A DNA stretch of 64,000 bases from Ceratodon purpureus (Eukaryota > Streptophyta > Bryopsida > Pseudoditrichales > Ditrichaceae): positions 36,643,918-36,707,917 of the forward strand of contig CM026426.1 of the NCBI GenBank assembly GCA_014871385.1, in the 5' to 3' direction. The stretch's first letter is position 1, and every line of letters starts with the position of its first letter. Both the position numbers and the translations under genes were made by a program. The notes under the pieces are model-generated. The model was not told the origin of the DNA. It saw only the letters and a program-made list of their open reading frames with translations, and did not search any database. Shown here in pieces: positions 701-60,469 of the stretch.

Positions 701-947
701 TAAAACTAGTGGAAACTGGCCTCAGCTACACTGAAGACTACACCCAAAACAGATCTAATTTCATGCATTCTGGTTAGGAGTAGAGAAGGTCCTGTTCGGT
801 GTTATTGGTCACTTGTCAGAACTAATTTGGGTGACTTAGTGTAGTTCTCAAATAGTGAACTAGGTCCCGCGATCTACTAATCCTTTTGGGAATCAACCCA
901 CGTGGGTAACGCCTGATTGTAATTACTGACTCTGTAAATCACTGCGT

Positions 948-1273
948 GGTGAAAGGCCCTGACTATAATCCTCGCCCACGTCTTAATGGCATTCGCTATT
1001 TCTGTTCCCTTCCGCGGCGGTCCCGCGAGACAGGGCCCACGGCGCGAGACCCTTCTTTCGCTCCAGAATTCTTTCCGTCGCTCCCCCCCTCTCGCGAGCC
1101 GTGCCCGGGCTCGGGATGCCACGTCGGACCCCGTCTCGAAACCCTCCCTGCCACGTCCGCATCCTCCACCCTGTCTCGTCTCGGAACCCAGAAAGACGAG
1201 ACACCCCATGCATGGGCTGTCTCGCGAGACAGCCTCATGGCACCATGGCCCATGGGCATGCATGGAGATTTTC
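948..1273 (+). repeat. MULE left TIR (957-1273) with 9-bp TSD (948-956)
   Basis: The TSD is GGTGAAAGG at 948-956, repeated exactly at 12056-12064. The TIR starts CCCTGACTATAATCC and runs 317 bp, matching the reverse complement of 11739-12055 without length change before the two arms diverge after GGAGATTTTC. It is GC-rich and contains eight GTCTCG/CGAGAC hexamers. At 1215-1234 it holds the perfect 20-bp palindrome GGCTGTCTCGCGAGACAGCC. Further CATG-rich palindromes lie on either side (CCATGCATGG, CCATGG, GCATGC). It sits 393 bp upstream of the transposase ATG, so it probably includes the promoter. Confidence 0.93.
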
Positions 1274-1665
1274 CTACCTTTCCGGGGCTTCCCTCTCGTA
1301 GGCCTGAGACGTGGAATAAGTCTCGTCTCGGTTTCCCGCTCGCGATTCCCAGGCGGGAGTTTGTTGTCTCTAAGTGCTCCATCGATTTCAAATTCTAGGG
1401 TTACCCGCCGTCTCGCCAGGCCCAGACGAGTGGCATCAGTGTCTGTCTACGGCGGACCCGTTTCGGTGCCCTCCCTGTGTCTTGCATGTTCCCGCGATGC
1501 ATCGTCCGATACCGCTCGTTTTTTTGGCCGTGTCGATGCCGAACCCGTGAACGCGAGACCGAAGGTGTCTTCAGGAGTGGCATCGGCTTGTACCGCACCT
1601 GTTTGCGGGACAAGCGCAATCTGTTGTGATGCGTGACGCGTGATACCCCGAGAGGTGCGGTCGGG

Positions 1666-4600
1666 ATGGAGACCTTGCAAGAGGACGCCGCGAGACGAAT
1701 CCTGAAGGACGATCTTCCGCGAGACAATGGAGCGACCGTGGCTTCCCATTCTGTCGACGTGAAGGTGGAGGTAGACACCTCCTGGATTGGACCGTGGGAG
1801 ACAATCTACATGCAGAAGAACGGTCACATTCTGCAGGGATACCGAGACGCGGTACAGTTCCCACCTCGCGGTCCCTTCACGTTCAAAGACATCAAGTGGG
1901 ACTTCCGCCAACCGAATTCGTATCCTGATGTTGTCGAATACTGTAGACGGAACGTCCCGGAGTCCGGGCTTGGAATCGGGCGCTCCGAGGGTGATGTCTC
2001 GGAGAAAAGGTATCATGTTGCTTACATTCCGTGGGAAAGAGTGGAGGACTTCGTCGAAGGCGAAAGCAAACGAAGGTCCGATGTCCAGACAAGATTCTTG
2101 AAACGACCCAAGGGGAAGCCGCCTGGTCACGAGCCGAGACACAATACTGGCCTTCATACTTTCTGGTTAGTTCATTTCCGAAACCGAATACTTCTGGGTA
2201 ACGTTTTGTATGTTCTTCTATTTGTTTATACGTGATGTCCGTGTCTCGATGTTCTTCGATAACGAGACAGCATTCGCGAAACGGGTTCCGAGACAGTCGA
2301 TAACGGCTCGCTAACTTAGTATTGTATTTTCGGCAGAGGTACGAGTGCCAGTACGGGCCGAAGGACTTGTCCGACAAGGTCCTCACAATTACTCCCGAGA
2401 TGGAGACGAAGAAACCGAAATACAACGTCAAGGGCAAGTTGATTCCCAACGGGCGTGGGAAGGGGAGGCCCAGAATTGGCGCTGCTGCGACTGGAATGAG
2501 CATCAAGAGAGGATGCGTGTGCAGATTCCAGGTGAAGCAGCTCTACTATCTCCGAGACGTGGTCGAGATTGTATATTATAACCCGAGACACGAAAATCCT
2601 GCATCGCTAGTGGTCCACGGCGCCGTCCTACCCGGCGAGCGTGGTCGTTTCGAAAAACAAATCCCGACGGAGCTCCGGAATTGGGTACTGTCGAGCCTCC
2701 GGTCTGGCGTTTCCAGTAACAAGATTCTTTCTACCCACCGTGCCGAGGTGATGCGTCTCGTAGCCGAGGGTGTTCCGCCTGAACGATGTCACTTTCTACG
2801 GGAGTGGGATGTCCGAAACATCGCCAAGGAATTGAGGAAAACAGAGTATCAGAGAGACGACAACGACGCCGAATCCGTGAAGATGTGGGTGGAGGCTAAC
2901 CCGGACGATGTTTTTTTCTACCGTCTCGTTAAGAAAGGCACTGTCTCGGGAACTCTCACGTCTGCGAATTTGCCGTTTGTCATCGGCATCCAAAACGAGT
3001 TCCAGTTCAAGATGATGCTACAGCACGGCCACGAAAGTATTGTCTCGATGGACGCTACGTTCGGAACAAATCACTGGAAGGTGAGGCCCATATATTTCGA
3101 CTTTGTCTCGTTCAGTACTCATTTCGTTTTTCGAGACATTCACATCTGTCTCGCTCTTGCAGTATCCCCTGTACACTCTGATGGTGTTCGACAAGTGGCG
3201 GAATGGAGTCCCTGTTGCTTTCATTATCGCGCAATCCGCAAAAGAGAAAGACATCACTCCCTGGCTCACCGCAATCAAGCAGAAGCTAGTTTCGAAGATG
3301 CCAGAGTGGCTACCGAGTGCATTCATTGTCGATGATGCATTAGCTGAGATTAACGCCATAATGTACGTATTCTGATATCTCTGTCTGCGTACTGTCTCGT
3401 GATTTGCCGACTCGCAAGCTGTCTCGTGACATACCGTTCCGCACACTGTCTCGTGATTTCCCATCACGCATACTGCACCTCCACTTCTGTACCCCTGATA
3501 TGTCTCGTGCGTTTCATAGGTTGGTATGGCCCAAGATTAAAGTATTCCTATGCCTCTGGCATGTGAGGCGGGCCTGGCAAAAGAACGCCTGTGCCAAAAT
3601 TAAAGGAATAATCACCAGAGCGTGGGCGCTGCGGGAAATGGGAGCGCTCATGTACATCGAGGAGTCCCCCGATTCGAGGTTGTCTGTCTTGGACTACGTG
3701 AAGGCTAGGTTCGCGAGACTGAAGACATTAGTGTCCGGCGCTGCTGCTTTCTGGGCGTACATTGAAAAGTACTGGATGATAAAGCCCGAAATGTGGGTGA
3801 CAGGGAACAGGCACATACCACATGCTGGTCAAGACACGAACGCAGGAATTGAGTCATATCATGGACACACAAAGGCCACTCTGAAGGCCGAGAAGAGTCG
3901 GTTGGATGGAAGGCGTCTCGATTGGCTCATTCACGAGCTCACAAACGACGTCGTAACGAAATACGACTACAACCAATACATGAAGGAGAATGGCTTCATA
4001 ACAAACAAGAAGGCAGAGCAGATCGTTAGAAACTCCATTATATCGGCGAACAAGATCCCGGACTCCTCTGTCTCGCTGCCGTCTCGACCCGGTGACCCCG
4101 CCATAGTCACGTCGTCCAAGCGAGCCCACATTAGATACGCCGTGTACAATCCCGATACCGAGTGGGCTGTTTGCGAATGTGTATGGGCCCAGAAAGGAAA
4201 TTTTTGCAAACATCAGCTGAAGGTTCTTCGTCTAATGAGGCCTGACCTTGCCGACGGGACGATTGTGAAGGTCTGCGGGACACTGTACGGTACCAAGCTA
4301 GGCGGTGTCTCGGCTCTCCTAAATCCCCCGGGACCGGGAATTCCAAGCGAGACTGAAACCGGACCGTCGCAGGATGTCCCCGAAGACTGGAATGCCAACA
4401 GCGAGACACAGGATGTGCCCACGGTCGACCCTCCACCGACTCAAGAAGACGAGGTGGCAAGAATGAAGCGCATCATAGACCAGACGGGAAGAGAAATCAC
4501 GGAACGAGCTGCGAGACACTACGTCATTCAGAAGCACCTGGCGGCGGAATTGGCAGAGATGAATACGAGACACGCTGCCATGGAAACGAGGATTCTAGCC

Positions 4601-4738
4601 GGTCTCCTTCATCCAACGGAGCGAGACGCCCCAAGATTTGAGAGGAATGACCCGAACAAGCCCAACTCGCTGAAACGGAATAGGGATTTCCTCGACGGGG
4701 GACGCGTCGGACGTCCGCCCAGATCCACGCAGGAGTGA
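1666..4738 (+). CDS. MULE transposase (DDE + SWIM zinc finger)
   Basis: The proposed exons are 1666-2165, 2339-3080, 3163-3362 and 3520-4738. All three introns are GT-AG and frame is kept, giving about 886 aa. The protein cuts and joins MULE ends in the nucleus. Visible hallmarks are Asp405 (S-M-D-A-T-F), Asp471/472 (F-I-V-D-D), the C-x-W-H motif just after it (CLWHVRRAW) and Glu592 (NAGIESYHGHTKATLK), with MULE-like spacing. A SWIM finger CxCx8CxH follows at residues 699-712. The N-terminal part holds a small Cys-rich segment (GCVCRF), perhaps a FAR1/FLYWCH-like DNA-binding fold. The C-terminus has a helical stretch (residues ~790-850). I chose the ATG at 1666; the frame is open a little further upstream without an ATG. 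No stop or frameshift is seen, unlike the CACTA genes around it. An extra 5' exon cannot be excluded. Confidence 0.88.
3393..3507 (+). repeat. 27-bp periodic TGTCTCGTG array in transposase intron 3
   Basis: Within the 157-bp intron 3363-3519, TGTCTCG starts at 3393, 3420, 3447 and 3501. The intervals are 27, 27 and 54 bp. Each copy is followed by TG, and the spacers are only loosely similar. This looks like a decaying 27-bp tandem repeat, or motifs kept in register while their spacers diverged. Confidence 0.7.
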
Positions 4739-4803
4739 CCCCACGTCTCTGTCTCGGATTTCTATATTCGATGTGCTCGGATCGAGACAGCGGGAACTCT
4801 ACC

Positions 4804-4809
4804 TATAAG
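4804..4809 (+). promoter_or_regulatory. TATA-like box upstream of the 128-aa ORF
   Basis: TATAAG lies 66 bp after the transposase stop and 115 bp before the ATG of the small ORF. Its position would fit an independent core promoter, but a single TATA match in a spacer is weak evidence. Confidence 0.35.
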
Positions 4810-4923
4810 TACACCCGCCACGACTCGTACTTTCTTTTTATTTTTGCAAGTGTTGAGTGGGATTCATAATCACGGGGTACCAGTTTCCGTAGTTCCCGTT
4901 TGGCGTTCAATTGGGTTCGCAGA

Positions 4924-5310
4924 ATGGAGTCCATGAACGTTAACTTCTTCAATGGGGGGGAGGACACGGTCCCGGGAGTTCATCCGGAGGGGCCTGTCTC
5001 GGGTGCCACACGCTGCTGTGATCTCCAGGAATTGGAGGCCGACGCTTTAGAGGTACTGGAGCAATTGTTCTTGGAGGCATCATATGATATAGCGTTATCG
5101 TCTCGGAGAATGAGCTCTGCGAAACGGAATCCAGTGGACGTGTACCGTATACCGAGACAATACCTTGGCGGGCAGTCCCAAACACGAACTGTCTCGAGGC
5201 GAGACGGGGTCGACTACGAGTCCCTTACGTACGTAGGCATGTGTCTCACCCCTTGGAACCCCACTAGGTCAAGGAGGATGTTAGGACCATCAGCATTCGG
5301 TAAACTGTAG
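4924..5310 (+). CDS. Small ORF of the MULE, unknown function (128 aa)
   Basis: An ATG at 4924 opens a 128-aa frame on the transposase strand, 185 bp after the transposase stop and facing the end of the peptidase gene. I recognise no domain. There is an acidic, Leu-rich helix-prone stretch (LEADALEVLEQLFLEASYDIA, part of residues ~38-60), then an Arg/Ser-rich part (SSRRMSSAKR) and a basic C-terminus. It contains several CGAGAC/GTCTCG copies. A GTACGTAGG donor-like sequence lies near the end, so the last residues may be intron read-through and a further exon may exist before 5766. By position it could be an accessory protein comparable to MuDR mudrB or the VANDAL vanB/vanC products, but this is inference only. 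Confidence 0.5.
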   Translation: MESMNVNFFNGGEDTVPGVHPEGPVSGATRCCDLQELEADALEVLEQLFLEASYDIALSSRRMSSAKRNPVDVYRIPRQYLGGQSQTRTVSRRDGVDYESLTYVGMCLTPWNPTRSRRMLGPSAFGKL

Positions 5311-5765
5311 CTCTAGATTGTGTTGTAGCGAATTTATTGATTATCTGTCTCGGATTGTAGCCTAGGAATTATCGATACTCTTTTATGCTCAATGTAGACA
5401 AGTATCGGATGTAAAAGAATCTTCCGTTTTCTAATTATACGTCACACGGTTTCCCGTGGAAAATTTTGTACAAAAAAATTTCTTCTTTCCTCTCCGACCC
5501 CTGGGAGCCAAGCATCCCACATACGAGACACTGAGCTCTCAACTAGTCACAGGGAGTCCACTACAAACGAGAGGCGAGACAGTCACTTCCCTTCCTTGGA
5601 CTGTCTCGGACTATACCATTCATCTATACACTGTCATTGTGTCCTTCAACTATGCACTACATCTCTACTACTGTACGTCTCCCTCCCATCCCCAAAACTG
5701 GTACTATGTACTGAGCAGTCCTGTACAAGTCTCCTGCCTGTCTCGCCCCAAAACAAAAACGCAGT

Positions 5766-8700
5766 CTACAGCCGTCGTCTCGCCGAGCCTGAAGGAGAGT
5801 GCACCATCTTCTCGAATTTCTCACGCTTAGACTTCCTGGACTTGGTGGCGCTTCCGAGCCTCGCCTTTGTGTCTTCCTCCTCCTCAGAACCTGGTGCTCG
5901 TGGTTCACGGATGTGGAACGCATCCACCTTGTACCCGGTCCGAGACATCGCTGGCGAAATACCGAACACTTGGACCCCGCCTTTTACTGTGACGTAGTCC
6001 GGGACAACGATATCCCCCTCCATCAGGTTAGGCAAGTCATTCAGTCCAGTCCCGCAGATCCTCGGTCTTGGTAATCTGTCGTCCGCACGGGCTGTCTCGA
6101 TGTACAGCTGCTCCAAGAACCACAACTGCATTTGCTGCCCAGTCCATTTCAACCACCGCTTCTTCTTCATTTTCTCCGCAGGCTTCGGGAAACGACAACC
6201 ATATCCACGAGTGACCATGTACTGCCAGAACTGGAAACTCATCGCGTATCCGCACTCCCATGACTCCTTCTGGTTCGGAGCCTTGAGCGAGACACATCCG
6301 CGAGACACTACCTTCCACCAGTCCTGCGATCCCGGAACAATTCCCCTGGAGCTCGCCCACGCGATGTGCACCAACGTGACGAAGTTGTCTCGAGCCTCCG
6401 TGTCGTGTATGTGGAGGAGGGATCCAAGGTGATATGTCGTGTCAAGCTCCACAACAAACAGGGTCCAGTGATCCTTATCGCAATAAGGGATCACCAACGT
6501 GTTCTCCCGGCCATTGCAACCTGAGAGCCACCGGATTCCGAAACTCCCCAGCCATTCCCAGTCCCCGTTGCACTCCAGGATGTGCGCATCCAAGACAGTA
6601 TTGACGTTGGATTCTGCCACCACATACTGTCTCGCGACGTGGTCCGGCGATCTCAGAACCAAGTGCCGCAGGAGGAGGTCCACGAATGGCCCAATCATGC
6701 ACGCCTGTGGTCTGAGTACGCACTCCCACTCTTGGACCAGGACAGGGATCTTCACGGCAATCCGGGGGTCGTTACCAAAGTAGATGATGTAATCCCCGTA
6801 CTCCGTCTCGGCCACATGCCCTTGCCTGAAATAGGAGACAGTGATAATGTTAGATCCGAGACAGGGTAGAACCTGGACAGCGCTATAGGAACATGATATC
6901 GGGACACCGCGAAACATTTTCAAGAATAAAAAACATGGACACAACGAGCCTAAACATACCATGAGTAATAAAACATGCCATTCACGAACTTAAGAACTTA
7001 CTTGAAGCAGCCAACGTGGAATGGAATCATCAATACCCCAAGCACTGCCTTCCAATCCATCTGTACTCCCTCCGAGACAAGCTCCGTCTTGAAATCCTTC
7101 GGGGGCTCCAATGTGTTCGGAACAGGCGTGGCAGGGTCCATGAATTTAAAAATCCAGTGGCTCCCCGGTTTCAATTTACTCGGCGGTATTGGTGCGCCAA
7201 AGTCGAGGTCCCAAATCTTGAGTCCTTCCTCTCGTGACCCAATTCCAGAGGACTGTCCCTCGTCTGACTCTGGCTCCTTGTCCTCCTCGACCACTGTCTC
7301 GGACGCCGCCACTGCGTCTAGTAAAGACACAATATTGCAACCCCCGTTAATTAATGTCCCTCTGGACACTGTATGATGAGTTGGTGTGCAAGAAAGTAAT
7401 TGCGAGAATCCGAAACAGTCCATCTGGGATGCAGAGGGAATGCCATCGCCCAATGGCAGGGAACTGAACCCGTCTCGCAATTCTTGGGTCCATGTTCCGG
7501 GACACTCACCTCTGGGTTTCGCGGCTGCCACTGTCTCCAATGAGGCAGCCTCCTTTCGCGGACTCTCGTACCGGCGAGGCGAATCCACGGAGGCAATGTC
7601 AACAACCTCATTCATTTCGTTGTGAAATGGGGATGAAGGGCTCGCTGTCTCGGTCCCTTCCGAGTCTTGTGCAGGTTCGTCGACAGGTATCGCGTGACCA
7701 TGGACGTTCAAGTGCCCGTACACCAACCTGTCTCGCGAAACCCCGTCAACAGCCGTCTCGGCAGCGGACCACCGGTCTTGAGCGACACCATTCAAGAAAG
7801 TGCGCACTGACAACGCACTGCGCAAACCAGAGGCCCAGGCCGGCTCTGCAAAGAAGGTCCAAGCCGTTAGCTTCGGAACGCATGAACTATTTCCGAGACA
7901 TTCTTACTACAAGACATCAGAACATGGCCTCTGTGTCGGATATGAACTTACCATCCGCGAGAGGGATCCAACGGAGATCTAGGTCCTCCCGTCGAGTTAA
8001 TGCTTGCCGCAAAATCTTCAAGCACTCTGGGAATACCTCTTCCGAGACGGGCGCCGTCAACTGCCACGCCGTCATGAAGGATTCCGTCTCGGAAGATGCA
8101 AAGTCCTCCAGTGCCCGAGCCTGGACTGAAAGGAGCCACGCCTGCAGGGCATCCGAGACACCGCTGTGGAGGGACATGCATGCTGCTGTAATGGCGTCCG
8201 ACGTCTCCGTCTCGGCGTTTGGATCAGCACCGAACAGTGTACTCCCAGCGGCCTGAACGAGACACCTCGCTGTGTCTAGAGCTCCAGGCGAAGACAACTT
8301 CTCCTGGACACTCTTGTCCAGTGCTCCTTGCAGTGGGTCCGCTGAGCTGTTATACCAGAGCACGAGGAAAATATGAGGGGCCCGTGACGGTTTTTTTTTT
8401 ATTTTAAATTATGTTGAATTGAATAAAGTACCTCAGGAGGAAAAAATAAAAATAAACAAGTACAGAATACTGACCTGTACCGAATATTGTGGACGAGGAG
8501 GAAAACGCGAATGATCTTTGCCTCCAGACCTGCTCCGACTGGCAGCGTCCGTCTCGTACCGAGTGCCTTGACCACGTCTCGCGCCTCCGTTTCCTTGTGC
8601 TTCCAGGGCATGGGAGGTAGCCTCTCCGAGACAGCGGGGTTCTTCGCGCATATGTGGTACAGGGGATTCCAACCCCATGACACTTCCTCCAACTCCCCAG

Positions 8701-10531
8701 CCTTGGACTCCTCCCACGCTGCAACCCTGTCCGCGATGAATTTCTCCTTCAGTCTGGCGTTATGAAGGCGCTGGGCATCTACGGCCTCCTCGTGTTTCTT
8801 CCAGTCGTGGACATTGACGTAGTAGTCCATGGAGGCGTTCGCGAGACGATCCATCTCTGTCTCGGACATTTCCCCGGTGTCCAACACTTCAGAAAGATCT
8901 GCCGCTAGACCGCTATCTCTCTCGGAGTATAGAGAATTCTGCAATTCAGAGAGTACGGCAGTCCTCCCCCGTTAACAACCTTGAGGCACAGATTGAAGTG
9001 CGAGACAAGTATGAAAGATAGACGGAAATGAATTAAAATATCGCAACATATTCACGACAAGTACAAGTTATTATAAAATAATGAAGTTGAGAACTCCAGG
9101 GAGGAGATGTCGTACCTTTCGATTCAACTTCTGGAATCGGAAGTAGGTAAGCGAGATGATTGTCTCGCGCCCTTCCTTCTTCAAGAACTCCCCCAGTCTG
9201 GTCCGAAGAGTTCCCCTGTCCCACGTGTGGAACTCCCTCTCCTCCCCAAAAAGCCCATAATCCATTAGGATGGTGAGGCCCGTGTGTCCCAAGCGTGTCT
9301 CGGGCTGGCGAATTGGATCTATTGTAAACAGGGACTCCGCTGCCTCTTGAGCCTCCTCCACAACCTTCTCCTTGTCTCGCATTAAGGCGGACATTGGGCT
9401 CAGGGGAACCTCCATCGGGGCCTCGTCGACCACCATAGCCACCGCTCCAGTATCCTCTGTGTGGACAGTGGGAGTGGAGACGGCCATATCAGAGCCGTCC
9501 CCGGGACGTATCCGAGACGTATCCGAGGCGTACCCGGCTGTCTCGTCCCGGATTGGGGATGGCGGTTTCTCGTCCGATGGTTTCAGTCGCTTCGCTGCCG
9601 TCGTGTTTGTCTCGCTCCTTGCCGCTGGGACCCTCTGTGCCGGGGTGGTCTTGCGTTTGTTTTTCCGAGAGTAAAACTCCCTCTCCTCGGGTTCCTCCTC
9701 CGGCTTGGAAGCCTTCACTTCAATGTCTCGTCCTTTCTTGTCTCGCTGTCGAGGAGTGAGTCCTGCCCGAGGAAGAACGATGAACGTATCAGGTACAGCT
9801 CCCGTGGCGTCCTCTTCGCCTGCAGATGTGTCTCGCCGGGGCGGTGAGAGGATGATCGGGACAACAGCAGGCGTCGGTGCCGTCTCGGGATTGGGGATGA
9901 ACGGTCTTCGCTCCACCACGGGCGAGTCCGAGGCCACAAAGTCACTGTCTGCCTCTGCCTCGGAATCTGAACTGCTCAGCACCATTTCCAAAGTCCTGAC
10001 AGCCAACCTATCAGGGACAGATTTTCTCTCGGCCTTCATGGGTTTCTTCGTCTGCTTCTTCGGCGATCTATCACTCGGACCACGAATCGCAGGGACGCCT
10101 TGTTGGAATTTGACCGGCTCCCCTCGCCGCAACATAGCCTGTGTCTCGTTCACGTAGTCCCTCACCAACTTCTGGGGCGAGACACCCGCTTGCAGCTTGT
10201 CAATGGTAACGTTCTTCTCAAGCAGATTCGGGTACATCTTCTCCGGGATGACGTTACCGTTCGCGTCGACATTTAGGGGGCACCCGTGCCATCTATGAGT
10301 ATTTAGACGCGCCTTCTGAGCACACATGGGCTCCCCATTCTTGCCACGGCATTTGTGCTTGCAGCAGAACAATCGACGTCCTAACATCACCGGCGCGCTA
10401 TGACACTCCAGGAGCAAATTCTTCCACTCCTCCCATGTGTAGTGTTCCGTGAACAACTTCTTGTCGCTTTCGTGGACCTCCGTGACGCCGTCGTCCGTGA
10501 TCTGGAGGTTCCTCCTGTACTCGGGAGCCAT
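5766..10531 (-). CDS. MULE-encoded Ulp1/C48-like cysteine peptidase, about 1,328 aa
   Basis: The proposed exons, from the 5' end on the minus strand, are 10531-9116, 8938-8475, 8346-7952, 7845-7510, 7317-7002 and 6825-5766. All five introns are GT-AG, every junction keeps phase, and the total (3,987 nt) is divisible by three. The catalytic domain is in the last exon: His1095 (C-D-K-D-H-W-T-L-F), Asp1117 (H-I-H-D), Gln1161 and Cys1167 (Q-K-E-S-W-E-C-G-Y). The Gln-Cys spacing of six residues matches Ulp1/SENP enzymes, which remove SUMO from proteins. The first exon has a Cys/His cluster (CCKHKC...C...H...H-G-C, residues ~55-85) that may bind zinc, followed by a long acidic and basic low-complexity region. 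A basic KRK-type tail ends the protein. It is transcribed towards the transposase. The deubiquitinase/deSUMOylase specificity and role in transposition are not visible from sequence. Confidence 0.85.
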
Positions 10532-11738
10532 GTCTCGCTAACTTGAACCTAAAACAAACAGGGGCGGAGGTTAGTAACCTGGATGCGAAGTTTATAAGAC
10601 CTTCCGAGACACAGACACAGCGCCGAGACTGCGAGACAGCTGCGAAGCAAAAACCGTGCACATCAAATTCGGCAGGAACTGTGGACGACAGGAAGGAGCC
10701 TCTACGACGGATCTCTGTCTCGGCAAAACATGAACGACGAATCGGAACAGAAATTAAGATTCTATGCACAAAATTGGTATACTCAAGAACTCCCTCCCAA
10801 TTCCAACGCGAGACACTCCTGTAACGGGGGCGACATCGTCGTCCTCATTTGATTTCGACAATAGCAGCGAGGCCACCCACAACAACCGCAGACAAGATAC
10901 ACCTGAACAGTATTCCACGAGACATGTCTATCCTAAACCCTAAACCCCAGAACGTCGTGACGTATGACTACTAAACCCTAAAACTAATCTCTGTGACAAA
11001 CTCCGGCAACAAAATCGCTATCGTCTCTCCGGAACACCATAAAAACAAACACATAGAAGATGATGAACGTATACATACCTCGATTGTCTCTGCGAAATCG
11101 CCTCTGCACTCCTCCTCCGACCAAATCGCACAAACTCCTCGATCGCGGCTCCAGCAACACACTCCGACTCCTCAGTTCTCACAACACTCTCAAACTCTAT
11201 CACAACACTCTCCGCCCATGAAAGCGCCTCTCGCACAACACTCTCCACCTCACAAACACTAAGCGTAACACATCTAACAATGGCGCGAGACAGCGGAGAA
11301 GGAAACGGAGAGAAATTGGCAGAGAAATTAGCAAACTTTGACAACGCGCGCATATAAACCCTCACACCTCCTCTCGAGGGAACACTCTCACCACCCCTCG
11401 AGACAACTCTCGCAACTCTCCTCAGGCAATGGCATAAAATGAGTCCGTTTTTCCAGGAGGCTGCCAATTTATACAGGGAGCAGGGGGGAGACGCCATCAT
11501 CACACCTACAAAACCTCAGAAATCAAAATCGAGGAAAAGGCTGCAAGAGACGGCGCATGATCTCCACCCACAGAACCCCATCATCACCTCAACACCCGAA
11601 ACAGCTCCGACGAGACAGACTGAAAGCAGAAGTGACAGGAGAAAGCAGAAGTGACACCCACGAAAATGAGACATCATACCCTAAAACGTGGAAGGTCATT
11701 CGACAGGACGTGACGAATTCTGTCCGTCTCGGATGGAT
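10532..11738. promoter_or_regulatory. Upstream region of the Ulp1-like gene with telo-boxes
   Basis: This 1.2-kb stretch separates the peptidase ATG from the right TIR. It contains TAAACCCTAAACCCC at 10934-10948 and TAAACCCTAAAAC at 10972-10984. The AAACCCTAA telo-box is known in plant promoters of growth-related genes. Between the two lies ACGTCGTGACGT, a near-palindrome with a TGACG core. CT/AC-rich tracts and several GTCTCG motifs follow. A 71-aa basic ORF (11439-11654, plus) is the only open frame of note and I do not believe it is a gene. Confidence 0.45.
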
Positions 11739-12064
11739 GAAAATCTCCATGCATGCCCATGGGCCATGGTGCCATGAGGCTGTCTCGCGAGACAGCCCAT
11801 GCATGGGGTGTCTCGTCTTTCTGGGTTCCGAGACGAGACAGGGTGGAGGATGCGGACGTGGCAGGGAGGGTTTCGAGACGGGGTCCGACGTGGCATCCCG
11901 AGCCCGGGCACGGCTCGCGAGAGGGGGGGAGCGACGGAAAGAATTCTGGAGCGAAAGAAGGGTCTCGCGCCGTGGGCCCTGTCTCGCGGGACCGCCGCGG
12001 AAGGGAACAGAAATAGCGAATGCCATTAAGACGTGGGCGAGGATTATAGTCAGGGGGTGAAAGG
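11739..12064 (-). repeat. MULE right TIR (11739-12055) with 9-bp TSD (12056-12064)
   Basis: This is the reverse complement of 957-1273 over 317 bp, ending GGATTATAGTCAGGG and followed by the duplicated GGTGAAAGG. It carries the same 20-bp palindrome at 11778-11797. The near-perfect identity of the arms suggests recent transposition. Reading frames of about 70-160 codons within both TIRs mirror each other and are not genes. Confidence 0.93.
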
Positions 12065-24016: not shown

Positions 24017-27000
24017 ATGCCTTGCCCTTGTACCGTATGCAATGGTAAACGATTGCTCAAGATATACAAGGTCAGGACTCATCTTATACGGGACAGACGT
24101 TCCCTTGCATTTCGTGTGTGGAAGGGTCCAGGCGAATACGACTCTTCCGATGCAGAGTGGGAAGCATTTCATGCGCAGAGACCAATTCATCCACACCGTG
24201 ATGAAGGCATGGACATGCGATCAATGATCCAAAATAACTTTATGCGTGAGCATGGAGACATGGAGGATCGGGTGCAGGATATAGCAGTCGACGCTCTGAA
24301 TTTTGCTGATGACGTAGGCGAGAGAGAAGACGATGCTGATAGCGATTTCGAAGACAATGTGGCACATCAGCGACGTAATGATCAAGGGCAATTCCAACAG
24401 CAAGGTCCTAGGGGATAAGCTGCTTGCGGTGACGACGAAGTATTTGACCCCGGCGCGATGGAGGAGGCAATACAAGATTTATACGAAGGAGCTCCTTGCA
24501 CCCAACTCGGTGCAACCATCTTCCTCAAAAATTTATTTTCTGTGCATGGGGTTACAAATAGGTTTATTCAGGACCTTCTGGCAGGTCTACATAAGTATTT
24601 TCTCCCGCCTAATAACACATTGCCTAAAACTAAACATGCTATGTCCACCCTTATTAAGAGGCTAGGTCTGGAATACAGGAACATTGACGTCTGTGTGAGG
24701 GCATGTGTGCTGTTTCGCAGAAATAGATCAGGTACAGAAGACTTCACAGACCTTGATCGTTGCCCAAGATGTGGTGAACCCAGATATCGGGACATGACAC
24801 GGAAAAAATTCCCAAGAAAGGTACTTCGGCATTTTCCTGTGATTACGCATTTGCAAAGAACATACCGATCCCCGTCTCTTTCAGAGCTACAACGCTGGCA
24901 CCATACTTATAGAAGCACTGACGGGAAAGTGAGATTTCCAGCCGATTGTAGAGCTTGGAAATTGGCCGAAGAAAAGTTCCCATTGGTGTTTCCGGACAAG
25001 CCACCGTTCCATGGAGACCCAAGGAATGTGACTTTGGCACTTACGGCTAACGGTATGAGCCTCTACAAGTTATACAAGTCTACGTGGTCAACGACTCCAG
25101 TTCTATTATTCAATTACAACATCCCACCTTGGCTCACGACCAAGAATTTTTTTATTATACTAGCATTACTGATCCCCGGAAAAGAAGCCGTTAGAGATGA
25201 CAAGTTTGATGTGTACCTACAGCCTTTAGTGGAGGAGCTGCTCGATTTGTGGGAAGGAGTGCCCTGTTTTGATGCGTACCCGGAATCTGAAAACACGGAA
25301 TTTAGCTTACGCGCTATGGTTATATGGACCATACACGATCTGCCTGGGTACGGCATGGTGGCAGGGACAGCGCATTCAGGAGGTGTGGCATGTCCGCCGT
25401 GCGGTCCCTAGATGAAGGGTACATGGGCACATGAATTGAATAAGTTCGTATACACAGGAGCAAGGAGATGGCTCAAACCTGGTCATGGGTACCGTTTAGA
25501 GGTTGCAGCAAAGTTCTTTGATGGAGTCGCAGAACACCGACCCCGTCCAATTCATGTCACGGCGCGCCAACAATTGGAAGGAGCAGCTGAGTATGAAGAG
25601 TGGTTAACTCACAACTCGCGGGGTAAGAACGATCCCCCGGATCCTTCGAAGACTCACGGAATGAAGAGGCGGAGTATACTGTTCGATCTTCCTTATTGAG
25701 AGGTTAGTGACTATCTGTTTGTTGTTCTTTGTTTAAGATAAATTGTTTTAGTTGCAAATTGGTTTATTTCAACATCGCTGTGATTGCACTTCCGTTCATA
25801 TATCAGGTTTAAAGATCACCGCATTTTCTAAGGGGAAAACTATGAACTGAGAATAATCCATGACATTGTCATTCTATACGTTTGGTCGCTGTGATTTTAA
25901 ATAAGACTAGTGGAAACAGTGATGGTTAATTATATCAATTCCAACGTATATGCTTGTAATTACAGCCGTTGGTCATATAAAACAATTTCACAATGGTTTA
26001 GTTACAGAGGCTATGTCGTTGTCAAGAGTACTCGTGATTGTACATAACGACTTAGATATACGATTTATTAAACCTGTCTGTGCAGCATCTGGAAATCCGA
26101 AACACCCTCGATGTTATGCACTGTGAAAGGAATTTGGCTTTAAATACTTTAGGGTATTTGGCGGGTGACAAAGACACGGTGCAAGTGAGGAGAGACTTAA
26201 AAAGAATGGGACTTGAACAACGGCGACATTTGTTTCTGCAGCCTCATCCGAGGAAGCCCGGGAGAATGATGAAGCCTGCAGCTCTGTACGTGTTAACGTC
26301 AGACGAATTTGATACATTCTGTTCGACTCTTGAAAAAATAAAGACACCGTCGAAATACGTGGGTGCTAACCTGGCGGACAATGTTCGAAAGAGGAAATGG
26401 GGGTCTTTGAAATCACATGATTGGCATATTCTCATGCAGGGACTGATGCCTTTGGCATTGAGAGGGCTCATGCAACCCATTCCACAACTAGCTGTCATGC
26501 GACTATGTCGAGTTTTTAGAAGGTTATGCTGCAAAGTATGGGATCCACAGGAATTTGATTCTTTGCGACAGGATGTTGCTGTCACTGAATGTTTACTGGA
26601 GATTGTATTTCCTCGAGCTTATTTTGATGTAATGTCTCACTTTCCACTGGAGTTGGTTGAACAGCTTCACCTATGTGGACCAATATCAAATCGATGGATG
26701 TATCCTGTCGAGCGATACAACAAAACTTTGAAAAAATATGTCAGGAATATGGCTAGACCCGAGGGGTCAATTGCTAGAGGATATATCGAGGATGCCACTA
26801 ACGGATTCGTCACGGAGTACATACATGGAGTAAAAGCTGTATCGACTAGGCTCTGGGATCCCGAGGATGACGACGAAGACACTTATGAAGTTCTAGAAGG
26901 TCGATCAAGTTCATGGAGATTTAACGAGCAGGACCGTTCAACAACGCACAATTATGTGCTACGTAACTCCTCAATCTTGGCTCCCTATTTCCAGTAAGTG

Positions 27001-38185: not shown

Positions 38186-41100
38186 ATGGGCCCCGGAGTG
38201 CGATTACCATTACATGATAGAAGGAGACAGGTTGCACGTGACGAGAAATTGTGTTTCAGAGAAGAATTGTTTGCTGATCGTCATCGCGCAAGGAAGCATA
38301 TTTGTCCCTGTAACATATGCTTAGGAGAAAATAGATCTTTGCGACATCGTCAAGTTGTGCGCGATCACCTTCAAAAACATGGCAGACATCCTTTTCATCA
38401 AGGATCTACTGAGGTAATCTACTAAGCGCTTCTTCAATTTTCACGCTTGGATGATGATTTGCTTCTTCACTTCTCATGCTTCATGTAAATCCTAACTATC
38501 GCAAGAGTTCGACCAGGATGCTTCGGACATCGAATGGGATGCCGACATCAGGGAGGAATATGGGGTTAGGAGGGGGGGTTCCGGGTTGAGCCCGACAGGG
38601 AATTGGACGAAGGGTGCAACATGGAGGGCCTTGTACAGCACGCCTTTCACGTCTACAACGGACTTTCTGGGCAGATTGGCAATTTACAAACAGACGCAGA
38701 GGAGGGAGAGAACATTATGCCGGATCTGAATGCGTCAGGACTTGATGAACCTGAGGTGGAGCCGGCTATGTGCGAACCTGGCGTTGAAAATATGAACCGA
38801 TTTGAAGAGCCACTTGCGCAAGACCATGAAGAGGAGAGACTTAGAGACGAGGATCTGGATTCCATGGAAGATGCAGTCCCTACACGGAGACAATTGTTGG
38901 AGGAAAGTGCGAGGACCCCCTCTTTCCTCGATCAGGCTTAACCCAGCTGGGAGGGACGCTGCTATTACTCAATTCTCTCAGAATACACGGAGCATCGAAT
39001 GTTCTAGTAAGTGAGATTTTCGCTATCCTCAGCAAGAGTATATTGTCGTCTGTCAATTCCCTCCCGCAAAACGAATACAGAGCATCAAAATTATTGAAGC
39101 AGTTGGGCCTTGCCTATGAGACTATACATTGCTGTCCCAGCCCAACCACCTGTATGTTATTCAGGGGCGATGAGTACAAGAATTTAGAGCAATGTTCCAA
39201 GTGTCACGCGGATAGGTACAGACAAGTCGGAAAAACAAAAGTGCCGGTGAAGGTTTTGAGGTACTTTCCATTAATTCCTAGACTCCAGAGAATGTTTAGT
39301 ACGCCTGTTCGAGCACCGTACATTACGTGGCATAGCCGACAGGGAAGTGAGAATGGAGTGATGAGAGGGGCAGTAGACTCACATCAATGGAAGTATGTGG
39401 ACTGGAAATGGAAGGAGGAATCTGCCTTTGAGCCTAGGAACTTACGCTTGGGACTTGCAACTGATGGCGTCAACCCTTTTTCAATCAAATGATCAACTTG
39501 GAGTACATGGCCGGTCTTGATACTGAATTATAACTTGCCCCCCTGGATGACAACAAAAAAACATTTCATAATGTTAAGTCTCATAATTCCAGGGAAGAAG
39601 TCAGTTACGGGTGACAACTTCGACATATACCTACAGCCATTACTTGAGGAATTGCTTGTTCTATGGAACCAGGGTGTTCCAACGGACGACGCCTCCAGGT
39701 TTATGGGAAGCCATCGTTTCAATATGAAGGCAATTTTACTATGGACGATGCACGATTTCCCTGCCTATGGCATTGTGGCAGGTTGCCTTACTAAGGGATA
39801 TAGAGGATGTCCCATATGTGGACCGAATACGATTTCAAGGCCTTCTTTAAGTCTCCACAAGAATGTTCATGATAACCAGTATCGTCGCTTCCTTCTCTGC
39901 GGTCATCCCTGGAGATCTCCGCGACCTGAATTTGATAACTTGCCTGAACACCGCGAGCCACCTCCAAAGCTTACGGCCACTGATACTGTACGCTGGGGAC
40001 AGCTTCGTGAGAGTTGGATTTCTCTGGGTCAAGGGCTGGCTTCGACTGATCCAGCACGCACCTTTGGCGTGAAAAGGGTATCCGCTCTCTTTGAGCTTCC
40101 TTATTGGAAGGTACTTATGCCATGAACTTGCTTTTTAAATTCAGTTTTGATTTGCATGTGCTTGCGGTTTATATGCCTTCTATTGTAATTATTAATTCAG
40201 TTTTTAGCAGTAAGGAACTACAGTTAGTGTGCCACCTCTCTGTTCTTTAAAAGCAGTTTCCAACAGCATTCCATTACGAATAATATTCTATGTACTTGTT
40301 ATTTAAATTATGTTGACTCATTTGCATGTGATAATGGATACTATTGCATAGCTTGTGCCATTCAATTACAGCTGATTACTGTATGGCACTCTCATGAACA
40401 TGTTCTGTGTGCATTGGAATAAAAACGCAGGACTTGCCTATCAGGAACACCCTTAACGTGATGCACGTAGAGCCGAATGTCTCAGACAACGTTCTCAAAC
40501 ATTTATTCGGAGATAAAGACACCCCCGCAACGCGTCGAGACATGGAGCAAGTTGGAAGGATGCACAACCTACACCTGGTTTTAAACGAAGCTGGCAATTA
40601 CATGAAACCGCGTGCACCCTACGTCTTTACAGACTCAGAGAAGGCAAGTTTTTTATCACTGATTTCTCGCACTAAAGTTCCAAGCGAATATAGTAGTACC
40701 CTTATGAAACACATGGGTGAGGCTGCATGGACTAAAGAGTCATGATCATCACGTGCTGCTACAGCAAATACTTCCTGCTGCGGTAAGAAACAGTGTCTCC
40801 AGAGGTGTGAGAGACACTTTAATTCGACTTGGAAATTTGTTCAAAAGAATATGCGCAAAGGTGATCAGAACTTCAAAAATTCCTCAACTACGATCCAGTG
40901 CGGCAGAAGTACTTTGTCTCTTAGAGAACAATTTCCCACCAGGGTTTTTTGACATTATTCCGCACCTTATTGTACATCTAGTTGACGAAATAGAGCTATG
41001 CGGTCCAGTGCATGCACGTTGGTGTTATTCGATAGAACGTTATCTTGGCGTTTTAACTAAGTATGTCCGTGACAAATCGAAGCCCAAGGCGGGTATGGCA

Positions 41101-42353
41101 TCTAGGTACATGGTGGATGAGAGCTTGGGATTCGTCACCGAATATTTTGAGTTATACCAACACTGCAAAAGCAGAGTCTGGGATCCCAAAGAGGAGCTGA
41201 GAGATTCGGGCGAGTTACTACTTGGAGCACCGAAGCCAAAACATCTATCCGACACGGAGCTGGAATTTGTGCATGAATACGTTATAAAGCATTCTATCCC
41301 TATAGAGGAGCTGCTCAGGTACTCTCTTCAAATTGTGCATTATATTTTCTTTTTGTCCCTCTTATTTGCCATGTCAACTTTGCCTCAGTTTTATGCTAAA
41401 ATCACATATATCAATCATGTAAATTCAGCAGCAACCTCGGAAGTTTATAACAGTCATCCGTGGTCTGATTTTTCTTAACAACGAATGGAGTGATCAAGAA
41501 AGGGAATTCAAGCTTCTTCGAACACAATATCTGAACTCGATAGTGAGACGACCTGGTACCCCAATTACCTACCCTGATCACCTTGCCGTTTCATTCCCAA
41601 AATTTGGAGCTTGGCTTAACGTCCATGTACGAGCTTTGAAAGCACAGTTTTCCGGTTTCACCCCAGCTTGAAGCCCTACACTGTCCACCTTCGCAACATG
41701 CGTGGAGTTCCAATTCGATGTGGGCTTTTGGATCGCATTACTCCTGTAATACAGAGTCCTCTCCATCCACAAGCGCTTTTGACTGTGGCATTGCATCAAT
41801 ACCCCCGTCATCGACAAGCACTGAGATAGATGTTGGAAATTTGAACAACATAATACTTGTGACATACCTTGGAATGAACTGCGTTCTGATGGACGGTTCT
41901 TGGATTCGGACGCTTGACCAGGGTCGACGCGTGATTCGAAAAGATCAGTATGGTTTTTGGATAGTACAGTACCATGCTAGAGAATCCCGTGCCAGGGATA
42001 ACCCTTATGTCTACCTTTCCACTGTATCCCAGGTATTTTTTCTAGACAATGCCGTTGATCCGTCTTGGAAGGTCGTGTTGCGACATGATCCACGCAGTAA
42101 GAGGATTGAGGGCGACCGAGACGTCGATATATTTGGAGCTACTGGTTTAAGCAGACCAACGTTGAGCACACGGTCCACCCCACACAATGCCTCGACTTCC
42201 ACTGCATCCGGCTTACATAGAGTCGAGGATTTTGAGGAAGTCCCGCATGATGCTGTAAATGTTGTACTACAAGAGGAAGAGCGAACTGATGATTTGTTCC
42301 ATCTTGACGACACTCAGTTTGAAGACGAGGTCGATCTACAGTATGTGGAATAA
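38186..42353 (+). pseudogene. CACTA-1 TNPD-like transposase (Transposase_21, DUF4218, DUF4216), frameshifted
   Basis: ATG at 38186 leads into an N-terminal HICPCNIC cluster homologous to that of CACTA-2. A GTAATC donor follows near 38413. The next exon is out of frame around a G run near 38570. Transposase_21 features then appear: CSKCHADRYR, an in-frame TGA at 39490, L-I-P-G-K, D-I-Y-L-Q-P-L-L-E-E-L, H-D-F-P-A-Y-G and CPICGP. DUF4218-like sequence (RNTLNVMHVEPN ... R-W-C-Y-S-I-E-R) is split by a frameshift near 40735. DUF4216-like sequence (D-Q-Y-G-F-W-I-V...V-S-Q-V-F-F-L-D) follows after another frame break near 41670. It was the mobilising enzyme of CACTA-1 and is now inactive. Its layout matches that of CACTA-2, and residue identity is moderate, so the two elements are distinct families. 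Confidence 0.82.
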
Positions 42354-48427: not shown

Positions 48428-50545
48428 ATGGAAGACTCAGCCACATCAAGTTACGCTGCCACTCTGAAATCACACTTGGCACATGCCCCTATCAAGCCCT
48501 TGGCCAAAGAGGACCAAGCCCTAGCGGAGAAGCTCTAGCGGCATGAATCGGTGGAACCCGAGTAGGTGGGTGCATTAGCGCACATGGGTCAGTTCGCAGT
48601 GATTCACCCGACACGGGCCTCCTTAGGTGAATCCCTTCCAGCGGGTGTCGAAAGAAGTAGCGCAAGTTTCTTGATTAAGACAGAGTCATGTAAGGTCACA
48701 CTGTGTAGGGAGAAGATCCAGAAGGAAATGGATTTCTTCCAGAAGAAGGTCGTCATTGCTTACTTCGTGGGAGGATAGGTCTCTCCCTAGGCATTGCGTG
48801 AATGGCAGGGGGCAATTGCCAAAGAAGTCCATGGAGAGTGTCACTCAGGTAGAGAACTCGGGCATGGCTTTTTATAGATTACCACCACAGAGGAAACCAC
48901 GACACAGAAATTACTCATGCTCACACCCCACCTTTCTAAATGAGGAACATGTATTATGCAACCCTGGGTGCCAGGGTTCAATGCAAGCAAACCAACCCGT
49001 ACCAAAATGCCAATCTGGATCACACTTAAAGAAGTGCCAGACGAATTTATCAATAGTGCGGGAGACCTTGCTTTGAGTTTGAGCGCAGTTCTCGGGAGGC
49101 ATCGTGGTAACGCTAACAGCGCGGACCAAAAATTCTTTATCGCGGTACAGACAAGTGACCCCTTCGTACTCTCCATCGAAGCTGAGAACCCCATTACAGG
49201 AACAGTCACGGACATTCAGGTTGATTACACAAACCTTCCCATCAGATGCAGGTTCTGTTTGTCGACCTCTCATCTGCTTAAAGATTGTAGTGTTCTCCAC
49301 GGTACGAGGAAGGCACCGCAACGCAGTAATCTACCTCCCCAAGGCATCGGGGTGAGCGTGCCAGGCGCTGATTCACCAAGTTGGAGGATGCAGCGGAAAA
49401 CAGGCCGCCCAGGCTTCAAAGCCCTGCTCACGAAGGAAGCCACATGCCTAAGCAGGGAGAAGTTAGCGTATACCACAGGAGGAGTACAAGATAAGCAGCC
49501 TAGAGCCCCAAATGTGGCTCCTTCGGACCCCATGCCGCCCCCAGCACAAGTGAATACACCGGTCAGGGACGAAGCCCAGTCCCAAGCCACCCTAGCAGAC
49601 GCTCGCCCACGGAAAGGCTCCGTGGGGAAACCAACTGCCTCCCTTGACTGGAAGGGTTGGGTTCAACGCGAGAAGGAGAAAGGTTATGAATCGTCCCCTA
49701 ACCAAAGTGAATTCACAGACGAGTTAGAACTTCAGAAAGCAAATCTTGACTGGAGAAGACACCAAGCCACCGCGGAACCAGCTCAGTCACCTTCGGCCAT
49801 GATTGGAAGTTTACAGGCTCAAGAATTGAGACGTATCTTGGCCAAATCCTTTGAGAAGCAGAAGAGAGGCACGGCCAGTTGGTCCTCGGGCATGACACAG
49901 GCCAACGCACTCCCCTCCCAGAGCGTGTCACATGTCAACCACGCGGCAGCTACCATCGTCGGGTTCGGCTCGACCCCGACTCCTGCTGAACCACATGGGC
50001 AGGATGACACGGTTACGCCTCGGGAGACTCAACAACATATGGACAACGATGTGGAAATGTCGGATTATACACGGCCAGATGACATCGAACCAACAGAATA
50101 CGAGGCAGGAAACCAATACGACATAGATGACTCATTCGCATGTGCTAGGAGTGGCTTCGAAGGGAGCTTCGACAGGGGTGAAGACTCCCAGCAAGGAGAA
50201 TCTCGGCAAAAGACCTCCTCCAGTGAGTCAAGACGGCAAACTGACGGTCTTAGCTTCGGAGAGGAGCAACTCCCCCCTCCTCCAGCTTACAACAGTCTCG
50301 AAGAACAAATCCCGTCCCATCTTTTGCCGGCAATAAAAGAATGGTTGAGAGAGAAAGGTGTACAGGCCACCTTCCCCCCTTTGCCGAATCAACCTAGATT
50401 ATCTCAACAAACGATCGCCAGACTCAATGCCACGCACGGCCCTAAATCACCTGGTAAGGTGACGGCCAAGCGGAAGTCCTCACGCAACGCACGAAGTCCA
50501 TATCCCCGGCCAGCAGTAGCCAACAACCCCAACGCCCATGCATGA
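48428..50545 (+). pseudogene. LINE-1 ORF1: DUF4283-like, zinc-knuckle protein
   Basis: An ATG at 48428 (ACCATGG context) opens a frame that meets TAG at 48536 and 48563 and again near 48776, then a frameshift, before a long open stretch from 48956 to 50545. The N-terminal part resembles the DUF4283 domain of plant LINE ORF1 (QKEMDFFQKKVVIAYF). The long part has a CCHC knuckle (C-R-F-C-L-S-T-S-H-L-L-K-D-C, near 49249-49290) and a low-complexity Gln/Pro/Ser-rich tail. The protein would coat the RNA in retrotransposition particles. Its TGA overlaps the ORF2 ATG as ATGA at 50542-50545, which suggests coupled translation of ORF2. Confidence 0.75.
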
Positions 50546-55656: not shown

Positions 55657-55982
55657 GGCCGTATCGCCTGGACAAAGTTCCAAGCCATCGAGAAGAAATC
55701 ACATGGCAACTCGGCAAAAATTGACAAACAATTACTTAGTTTCCAATCTCTGTGGTGCAGGAGGCTCTTCGCCACAAAGGAAGGTGATCATCCCCGGTGG
55801 AATCTCATTGGTCCTAGTTTTAGAGCACTTAGCCAGGTCAATTAGTCTTGTCTTGTGTGTCGGTCAGTCCCCTGGCCTCGCCGGCCTTGGCGGGGCTGGC
55901 TTGTATTTTACTCTTTCTCCTCTTGTAGTAAAGGTAAACCTTTATTTGTGTCAAAAAATAAATAAATAAATAATCCCAATAA

Positions 55983-57088
55983 TTTGTTGAATAAAGTATG
56001 GTCTTTTAATATTATAATTATTATTCATTCAATATTTTTTTTTAAAAATGCTACAAGTTGAAATGGTAATTACTATTTAGGTGTTTTTTTAATGACTACT
56101 TCATGTTGGTAGCAATATCATCATATTTCAAAGTCAAGATTTTCACAAAGCAAAATGAGTAGTTTTGAAGAAATACCTCTATCTTGGGCATTTTGTGAAC
56201 TTGAATTTTTGAAAAATAATAAAATCTGCAAATATGTCTAGAATTTTCTGCCAATCTTTGACATCGTGCATATTACACACATATTTCACATAGTACTTAC
56301 ATACTACACACATTCTTCAGTTTTCTCTCAGTTATTCTAAATTTGTATCCATAATTTTTATGCAATATATTCTACAAAATCATTTAAGTATGATTTATTC
56401 ATAAACATTGCACATCATTTTTTCATAGAAAAATATCTCCAAATTTTTGTCACAAAGCATTCTTTGATACATCAGAGGCTCATGTCATCTACTTTAATCA
56501 CAACCCTTACTCAAAAGTAAAAAATTAATAACATACTGTTTCAATAACATGTGATGTGATGTATCGTAGACAGACAATAGCTGAACGCACAACATTACAT
56601 CACAACTATGCGTGGACACTACACTAGAGGTTGGACAAGGCTTCTTCTGTCATTAACATGGTATCAAATAATATTAATCCAAATGAAAAACGTATAATTA
56701 AATATATTTTCAACCCAAGTTCTGTATTAAATTAAAGTAAAATTTCAATCTTACATTGTTCAAATGGAACATCCAGTCACTGATTATTTTTTTACTTGTG
56801 TTGATTTTTGTATGACACTTTGTAGTTTGGAATGTTTAATCTAATTTGATCAGTGTATCATAAAATTCAATCCAAAGGTTAAATGTTTTTTTGGAAGAAT
56901 TGTTTTCCAAAATAGTGTTTAAAATTAGATTTAAAAAGATTGAAGGCCGACATACTCCTTCTAGATTTAAAAACAATTTTGAAAGGAAGTAACATAGTTA
57001 TAGAAAAATACATGAAATTTACAAAGAAAGTTATGGAAATTAAGTCACATGCTTACTAAAATCACAATTATAATATGGACATGGTTGT
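55983..57088. other. AT-rich DNA, no gene seen
   Basis: About 1.1 kb of AT-rich sequence following the LINE tail. No ORF with motifs and no inverted repeat. It could be intronic if the H+-ATPase exons to the right belong to a living gene, since their 3' side points this way. Confidence 0.45.
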
Positions 57089-57092
57089 TTAA

Positions 57093-57939: not shown

Positions 57940-58110
57940 TTAAGTAAAGTTGTTCATTCCTTATTTTATCTAATTTTATAAGAAACATTAAAATATGATG
58001 GATTGCTAATCTTTAATATATTTGGAATAATATTTGAGTTATTCCTATTTGGTGTAATTTATGTTAATGATTAGAAATTACAGACCATAAGATTAAACAG
58101 ATCATCTTAC

Positions 58111-60457: not shown

Positions 60458-60469
60458 AATCTCGTTGGG

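Follow-up and report, generated by a model that had tools for sequence, protein, structure and literature searches.

The 64,000-nucleotide window analysed here, from a plant host that is probably the moss Ceratodon purpureus, contains at positions 957-12055 a Mutator-like transposon (MULE) with long terminal inverted repeats (TIRs), in which the hexamer GTCTCG (CGAGAC on the opposite strand) recurs from end to end, protein-coding segments included. Statistically, the word is shown to exceed the expectations from composition and codon usage, to outlast control words in diverged copies, to occupy both strands, to be spread more evenly than by chance along the element and to be specific to one group of related elements. 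Two observations are new: sister loci of this group (group A) keep GTCTCG mostly at other positions of the gene, and a second group (group B) carries a different word. Our tentative reading, whose chances we place a little short of even, is that the word serves as a self-address read by a protein encoded by the element itself, a putative convergent zinc-finger protein that would counteract silencing.

Exact counting gives 62 GTCTCG and 51 CGAGAC starts in the element, i.e., 113 words or 10.2/kb, compared with 6 + 7 = 13 words (0.25/kb) in the remaining 52.9 kb of the window. No other hexamer is as frequent in the element, and the earlier note on this DNA, which had estimated about 113 copies in 11.1 kb, was accurate. 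Its observation that the word halts at the element borders also holds, since no copy lies in 1-956 and the first one past the right border is found at 14304. The excess of 20-fold above chance given there corresponds to uniform base frequencies (5.4 words expected), whereas Markov expectations of 10.1 (order 1) and 13.2 words (order 2) correspond to a 9-11-fold excess, and the comparison with the flanks to about 41-fold. GTCTCG follows a T in 77 of the 113 cases and a C in 29, giving the extended form YGTCTCG.

The word is present in the TIRs, predicted introns, open reading frames (ORFs) and spacers of the element. The earlier statement that it occurs irrespective of the type of DNA is thus confirmed for all these types and for both strands, but not for density: the ORF segments contain 50 words in 6273 bp (8.0/kb) and the rest of the element 63 in 4826 bp (13.1/kb), so that the ORFs are saturated yet less dense. 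In the codon-preserving control suggested in the earlier note, 2000 synonymous-codon shuffles of the seven ORF segments give 11.3 ± 3.0 words (maximum 22) against the 50 observed, and codon usage is consequently no explanation. These words occupy all six frame and strand registers; several of the seven segments overrun likely splice sites, with overhangs that contain no word.

Spacing statistics refer to the window copy. In the interior (1274-11738, 97 words), the coefficient of variation (CV) of the gaps is 0.76, more even than random placement (P 0.002), the longest gap is 368 bp against a random mean of 552 (P 0.019), and counts in 500-bp bins have a variance/mean ratio of 0.41 (P 0.016). 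For the element as a whole, the gap CV is 0.82 (P 0.015) and the same longest gap of 368 bp compares with 519 (P 0.046), while counts in 500-bp bins do not depart significantly from random placement (0.87, P 0.44). Helical phasing of the words at 10.5 bp was looked for and rejected (vector 0.06). The strand counts, 54/43 in the interior, speak for double-stranded DNA; they are 16/15 in the transposase gene and, less evenly, 14/25 in the convergent gene. Two arrays in the element hold the word, one with 11-bp units and one with 27-bp units; the latter (3391-3475) has one word per unit and lies in the predicted intron 3364-3519.

The ends of the element at 957 and 12055 are exact, as defined by perfect 317-nt TIRs with a 9-bp duplication on either side. 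The left TIR (957-1273, plus strand) contains eight words, including the palindromic double word CTGTCTCGCGAGACAG, and the right TIR (11739-12055, minus strand) is 100% complementary to it, which places the palindrome at 1217-1237 and 11780-11800; an imperfect relative of it occurs at 7728-7748, within the convergent gene. The target-site duplication GGTGAAAGG occupies 948-956 and 12056-12064. Five further copies of the element were examined in this respect, and the duplication is 9 bp long in four and 10 bp in one. The TIRs, the 9-bp duplication and a PF10551 transposase together identify the element as Mutator-like.

Word retention and turnover in related copies

The genome searched for copies comprises 362.5 Mb in 151 contigs, labelled here C1, C3, C5, C6 and so on. 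It encodes a LEAFY (SAM_LFY) domain (E 9.4e-28) that none of 14 control genomes shows, and LEAFY is known only from plants; a fungal host was considered and rejected in view of this domain and of the CACTA and LINE sequences flanking the element. The element belongs to a multicopy family, with 40 TIR matches scored; among 104 transposase matches with a score, 27, several of them fragments, share 78-100% identity with the window copy. Of eleven copies aligned with the window element, two at 99% identity are uninformative. In all nine remaining copies the word has a higher retention than its anagram hexamers with a single CpG, with one-sided Fisher P < 0.05 in seven of the nine, although the copies share history and are not independent. 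For example, an 83%-identical copy keeps 26/42 words and 22/85 anagrams, and an 80%-identical copy 43/88 words and 59/225 anagrams. The proposal of an element-wide recognition word that extends through exons is supported to the extent that the word looks selected, as judged from its excess over codon shuffles and its better retention than anagrams.

Lost words have frequently become GTCTTG or GTCTCA (26/55 in copy C6_63.2 and 23/45 in copy C6_81.8), and this CpG-type decay of old copies agrees with their being dead and methylated. On the window branch, 1/111 words and 23/294 anagrams were gained; such few recent gains, below those of the anagrams, indicate that the present set of words is mostly old.

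More distant loci with the same word were sought among the transposase matches at 48-54%, of which four were scored and three read (L032, L034 and L035; transposase identity to the window 56, 54 and 50%). They contain 23, 29 and 11 GTCTCG words, respectively, in about 4.1 kb. In the transposase core, L032 has seven words against a codon-shuffle mean of 0.52 and L034 seven against 0.74, neither value being reached in 3000 shuffles; the decayed locus L035 shows a modest excess, with three words against a mean of 0.61 and 53 of 3000 shuffles reaching it. Only one of the ten window core sites (site 528) is common to L032, and none is common to L034 or L035. Positions that are little shared among the subgroups, together with a density that is kept, suggest turnover under selection for density. 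The three loci align too little with the window element for a retention estimate (1/2, 0/4 and 0/0 words).

A different word in a sister group

At 40-45% transposase identity, 73 matches are listed, and five of these loci were read (L038, L059, L060, L061 and L062; 41-43% to the window). The second word, (C)AGTGTCAC, was spotted among the top hexamers of L038, and the other four loci were then fetched as a test. AGTGTCAC is present in all five, with 12, 9, 8, 5 and 5 copies in 4149, 2904, 2910, 2901 and 2925 bases, which amounts to 39 copies in 15.8 kb, 33 of them preceded by C. The GTCTCG counts are 4, 3, 1, 1 and 0, and the 24 one-mismatch neighbours of AGTGTCAC sum to 18 against about 15 expected. 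In the transposase cores, 5, 3, 3, 3 and 1 words are found against codon-shuffle means of 0.2-0.4; the single word in the core of L062 is not a significant excess. Core sites 528 and 550 recur among the B loci, and part of the core signal is therefore inherited. One group-B element matches PF10551 above the curated cut-off (E 8.6e-8), and in an unrooted ten-row transposase tree a single branch separates A from B with a support of 100/100.

The association of the second word with group B extends beyond the loci read. Pairs of CAGTGTCAC spaced 1-30 bp apart occur at 168 places genome-wide and the reversed pattern at 57, part of the latter count being thought to stem from tandem B words. Proximity was evaluated for the first 100 of the 168 pairs in contig order, from C1 to part of C6: 50 of these have a listed transposase match within 12 kb (0.7 in shifted controls), and 73 have a B transposase or B finger gene within 12 kb (1.3 expected), some of the counted pairs being internal to the transposase gene. 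Inverted pairs at C1:22590906 (minus) and C1:22603931 (plus) bracket a B transposase, and locus L063 has a like pair at 1644-1666. These pairs suggest that the B word is also present in the terminal regions of group B.

The presence of a sister group with a different word is what a coevolving pair of word and reader predicts. It also bears on the suggestion in the earlier note that binding might be methylation-sensitive through the central CpG: as an essential feature this is ruled out, because AGTGTCAC contains no CpG.

Several further arrangements of the two words were observed. Three GTCTCG and one CAGTGTCAC stand together at C1:10899556 and at C1:10984514, the latter about 4 kb from the B transposase at C1:10979209; such mixed-word sequences possibly represent a bilingual or intermediate family. 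On C5, triple GTCTCG matches of equal length (12857012 and 12902388) lie on either side of the B transposase at C5:12860507. Near the contig end of C6, triple GTCTCG matches follow one another in steps of about 26 bp (7954-8487 and from 17036), which points to a probable tandem array. Short tandem arrays of CAGTGTCAC occur near B finger genes at C3:2734740-2734839 and C6:27965812-27965946 and resemble the arrays of VANC targets.

Candidate reader proteins and competing explanations

Two genes are predicted in the window element. The MULE transposase gene (1666-4738, plus strand) has exons at about 1666-2199, 2339-3081, 3163-3363 and 3520-4738, with borders set by eye. Its concatenated exons match the PF10551 MULE domain above the curated cut-off (E 1.8e-15), while single exons give no Pfam match above cut-off, and a SWIM-type CxC..CxH motif is also discernible by eye. 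Words occur in its exons and in its predicted introns, with three in 2200-2338, three in the 81 nt of 3082-3162 and four in 3364-3519, including those of the 27-bp array. The convergent multi-exon gene (5766-10531, minus strand) consists of an N-terminal part (N-part, 9074-10531), middle exons within 6998-8944 and a C-terminal exon (5766-6962); the unity of its ORFs is presumed, its splice sites are predicted in part and its start is provisional. In the N-part, a zinc-finger-like Cys/His cluster, FCCKHKC...LNTHRWHGCP (10277-10369, minus strand), is the proposed word reader, with a putative DNA-binding role. The C-terminal exon (5766-6962, minus strand) carries a putative Ulp1-like cysteine-protease domain (DHWTLFVV, ECGY) as the proposed effector. 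A 128-aa ORF (877-1263, minus strand) crosses the element border and lies mainly within the TIR. Elsewhere in the window, remains of CACTA-type transposons are found on the plus strand at 24419-26994 (Transposase_21 tnp2, E 1.9e-43) and 40708-41475, both with DUF4218, and LINE-like ORFs at 48944-61455 (plus strand; RVT_1, E 2.1e-27, zf-RVT and a sub-threshold endonuclease).

A counterpart of the candidate reader is found in group B. Locus L064, part of a B element, contains a convergent ORF (607-1998) with three B words inside and a finger, FFVCIHCGSNHFSNKMMLNRHRFVEGCP, starting at residue 113. When this ORF is compared with the whole window element in six frames, its best match is the FCCKHKCRGKNGEPMCAQKARLNTHRWHGCP region (34% over 53 aa, E 0.019), and the B finger and the window Cys/His cluster, compared as two pieces alone, give E 2e-4. 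The N-terminal part of the Ulp1-like protein, through a zinc-finger-like cluster that resembles that of the B convergent protein, thus has some support as the reader candidate. Both ORFs include the sequence MAPE. A common start at this point was considered and rejected, because in group B the ORF and the conserved part of it extend 63 residues further upstream.

The genomic neighbourhoods of the two proteins, for which the searches list scored candidates only, are separate. Of 41 listed matches to the A N-part, 29 have a listed A transposase within 20 kb, and none (0/41) has a listed B transposase at that distance. Of 92 listed matches to the B ORF, 44 have a listed B transposase within the same 20 kb and one has a listed A transposase, a decayed copy at C6:103.49 that is 17 kb away. 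B ORF matches that end before residue ~230 show about 50-66% identity. This group-wise separation indicates that the candidate reader, like the word, is different in the two groups.

An element-encoded reader fits a word that is specific to each group, occurs almost equally on both strands and covers the element from end to end, as well as an accessory finger that has diverged. Taken with the VANC precedent described below, this fit suggests that the finger may bind the word, that the Ulp1-like domain may act on silencing proteins and that activation may be narrowly confined to self. Each group would encode its own reader, most likely the convergent zinc-finger protein, whose finger region would bind the word of its own group. 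The C-terminal Ulp1-like domain, if active, would then free silencing proteins bound to the element chromatin of SUMO or a related tag, and DNA methylation and heterochromatin would be lost only from copies bearing the right word. Dense and even words would ensure that a bound reader could reach every segment of a few hundred bp, and if finger and word changed jointly, two families without mutual recognition would arise from one. In its fullest form, the proposal is that a clade of transposons writes its self-word body-wide, exons included, at roughly nucleosome scale, that its own tethered zinc-finger SUMO protease strips silencing from itself alone, and that word and finger switch jointly, so that a single plant genome would harbour two or more dialects unintelligible to each other. 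This combined version is possible but rather unlikely.

A number of results weigh against an element-encoded finger reader with a Ulp1-like effector. Regarding the effector, the best PDB match of the C-terminal exon, the Ulp1-like SUMO protease 6dg4, is weak (E 0.06), though aligned over the catalytic region; the single-sequence structure model of this exon has a pLDDT of 37, the Pfam scan of the element ORFs gives no peptidase match, and of 10 listed weak Ulp1-like matches (24-26%), 6 have a listed B transposase no more than 6 kb away. Regarding the reader, the A/B finger similarity is short and weak; Pfam zf-C2H2_11 matches the B finger below threshold (E 0.0019) and the A cluster not at all, the part of the B ORF upstream of MAPE finds no match in the window element, and the VANC domains DUF1985 and DUF287 are without Pfam match in the ORFs scanned, where divergent forms would escape. 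Moreover, the loss of N-part similarity between A and B is not clearly beyond the general fast evolution of this region: in the A sister at C6:76 the N-part match is 41% over 94 aa (E 1.9e-5), where the transposase is at 54%. As for the words, the five B loci cannot be counted as so many independent families, since L038, L059 and L060 are 88-90% alike in transposase (the rest 69-75%), and a sequence that looks like an element terminus, 4 kb away from a B transposase, combines GTCTCG with CAGTGTCAC. The genome-wide test for triple GTCTCG is not specific, with 331 cases against 410 in the reversed control, the counts being apparently dominated by simple arrays.

The main rival to the finger-protein reader is binding by the transposase, for which the words would gather transposase, help pair the ends or mark self against self-insertion. 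The transposase N-terminus differs between the groups (34% over 92 aa, A against B) and could itself be the reader, the words are paired or palindromic in the window TIRs and paired in the terminal regions of group B, and the two words can be aligned by eye on a TGTC-N-C core. However, end binding requires no dense internal sites at about 10/kb, exons included, and the N-terminus is still alignable between the groups despite the changed word; this explanation is on balance unlikely, if a serious contender. It is improbable that the words recruit a protein of the host, such as a transcription factor. Although the host is a plant and 77 of the 113 words read TGTCTCG, which includes the classical auxin response element TGTCTC, 29 read CGTCTCG, and a host factor would leave unexplained both the words in the exons of the two genes and the occurrence of group-specific words, with a sister group using another one, in a single genome.

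A role of the word in RNA (splicing, export or avoidance of small RNAs) would agree with the dense words of the predicted transposase introns; the near symmetry of the strands overall and in the transposase gene, though less so in the convergent gene, and the words in TIRs and spacers make such a role very improbable. A compositional, mutational or codon-usage by-product without function is scarcely credible. The GC content of the element (53% against 43% in the flanks) points in that direction, and 4 of the 18 one-mismatch neighbours of GTCTCG, at about twice their expectation, count both for this explanation and against an element-encoded reader. Nevertheless, none of the 18 approaches the excess of GTCTCG itself, the Markov and codon-shuffle expectations fall far below the observed numbers, and the word outlasts its anagrams.

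Relation to known systems

Sequence-specific anti-silencing is already known from the VANDAL elements of Arabidopsis, where VANC proteins bind short motifs peculiar to each family and cause hypomethylation of the motif-bearing elements alone (PMC5735166). The motif YAGTATTAY and the pair AGTTGTCC/AGTTGTAC, the latter tied to VANC6, are both described from non-coding tandem repeats (PMC5735166, PMC10398659). A comparison with this system, as drawn in the earlier note, is apt, given the plant host and the two groups with family-specific short words. As far as the accessible text of these papers goes, the present elements resemble VANDAL21/VANC21 and VANDAL6/VANC6 in being of the Mutator kind, in having related families with different short motifs along the element in one genome, in encoding an accessory protein besides the transposase, and in having motif-bearing tandem arrays. 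They differ in that 50 of the 113 words lie in ORF segments, whereas the VANDAL motifs are located in non-coding tandem repeats and coding probes are without them, according to the same portions of text. The density of about 10 words/kb, the 317-bp TIRs and the probable moss host also set them apart, as does a candidate reader with a finger-like cluster and without a DUF1985/DUF287 match in the scanned ORFs. The B word CAGTGTCAC agrees with YAGTATTAY at 7 of 9 sites; as the chance of such a match is about 0.03 for the 9-mer and 0.10 for its 8-mer core, homology to the VANC21 motif is weak and was not retained.

According to the accessible part of a review, some VANC genes carry a Ulp1 domain, motif-specific hypomethylation is reported for KIU-type Vandals, and the Ulp1 capture is dated to the monocot/eudicot split (PMC13317346). 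The accessory protein, with its putative Ulp1-like domain, would resemble KIU in this respect, unlike which, on the same partial source, the present element has TIRs and words that extend beyond non-coding regions; a Ulp1 case in a moss would predate this capture or repeat it independently. A Ulp1-like region is also described in grapevine MULEs, in either orientation to the transposase, and by citation for melon and rice (PMC2528002). The possible likeness lies in the domain, and the consulted portion of that description includes no dispersed word.

Short self-recognition words throughout coding DNA are also familiar from the DNA uptake sequences of Neisseria and Haemophilus, which differ from the present words in residing on bacterial chromosomes, in being far sparser and in serving DNA uptake. 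The literature search, with most subscription papers beyond its coverage, listed no title or opening of an abstract that describes such words in a bryophyte, or exon saturation. If the proposed reading is true, such codes would appear to be old or recurrent in plants and able to constrain protein-coding DNA, and both the co-switching of word and reader and the role of the Ulp1 domain in MULEs would become testable. It could furthermore yield narrowly targeted epigenome tools.

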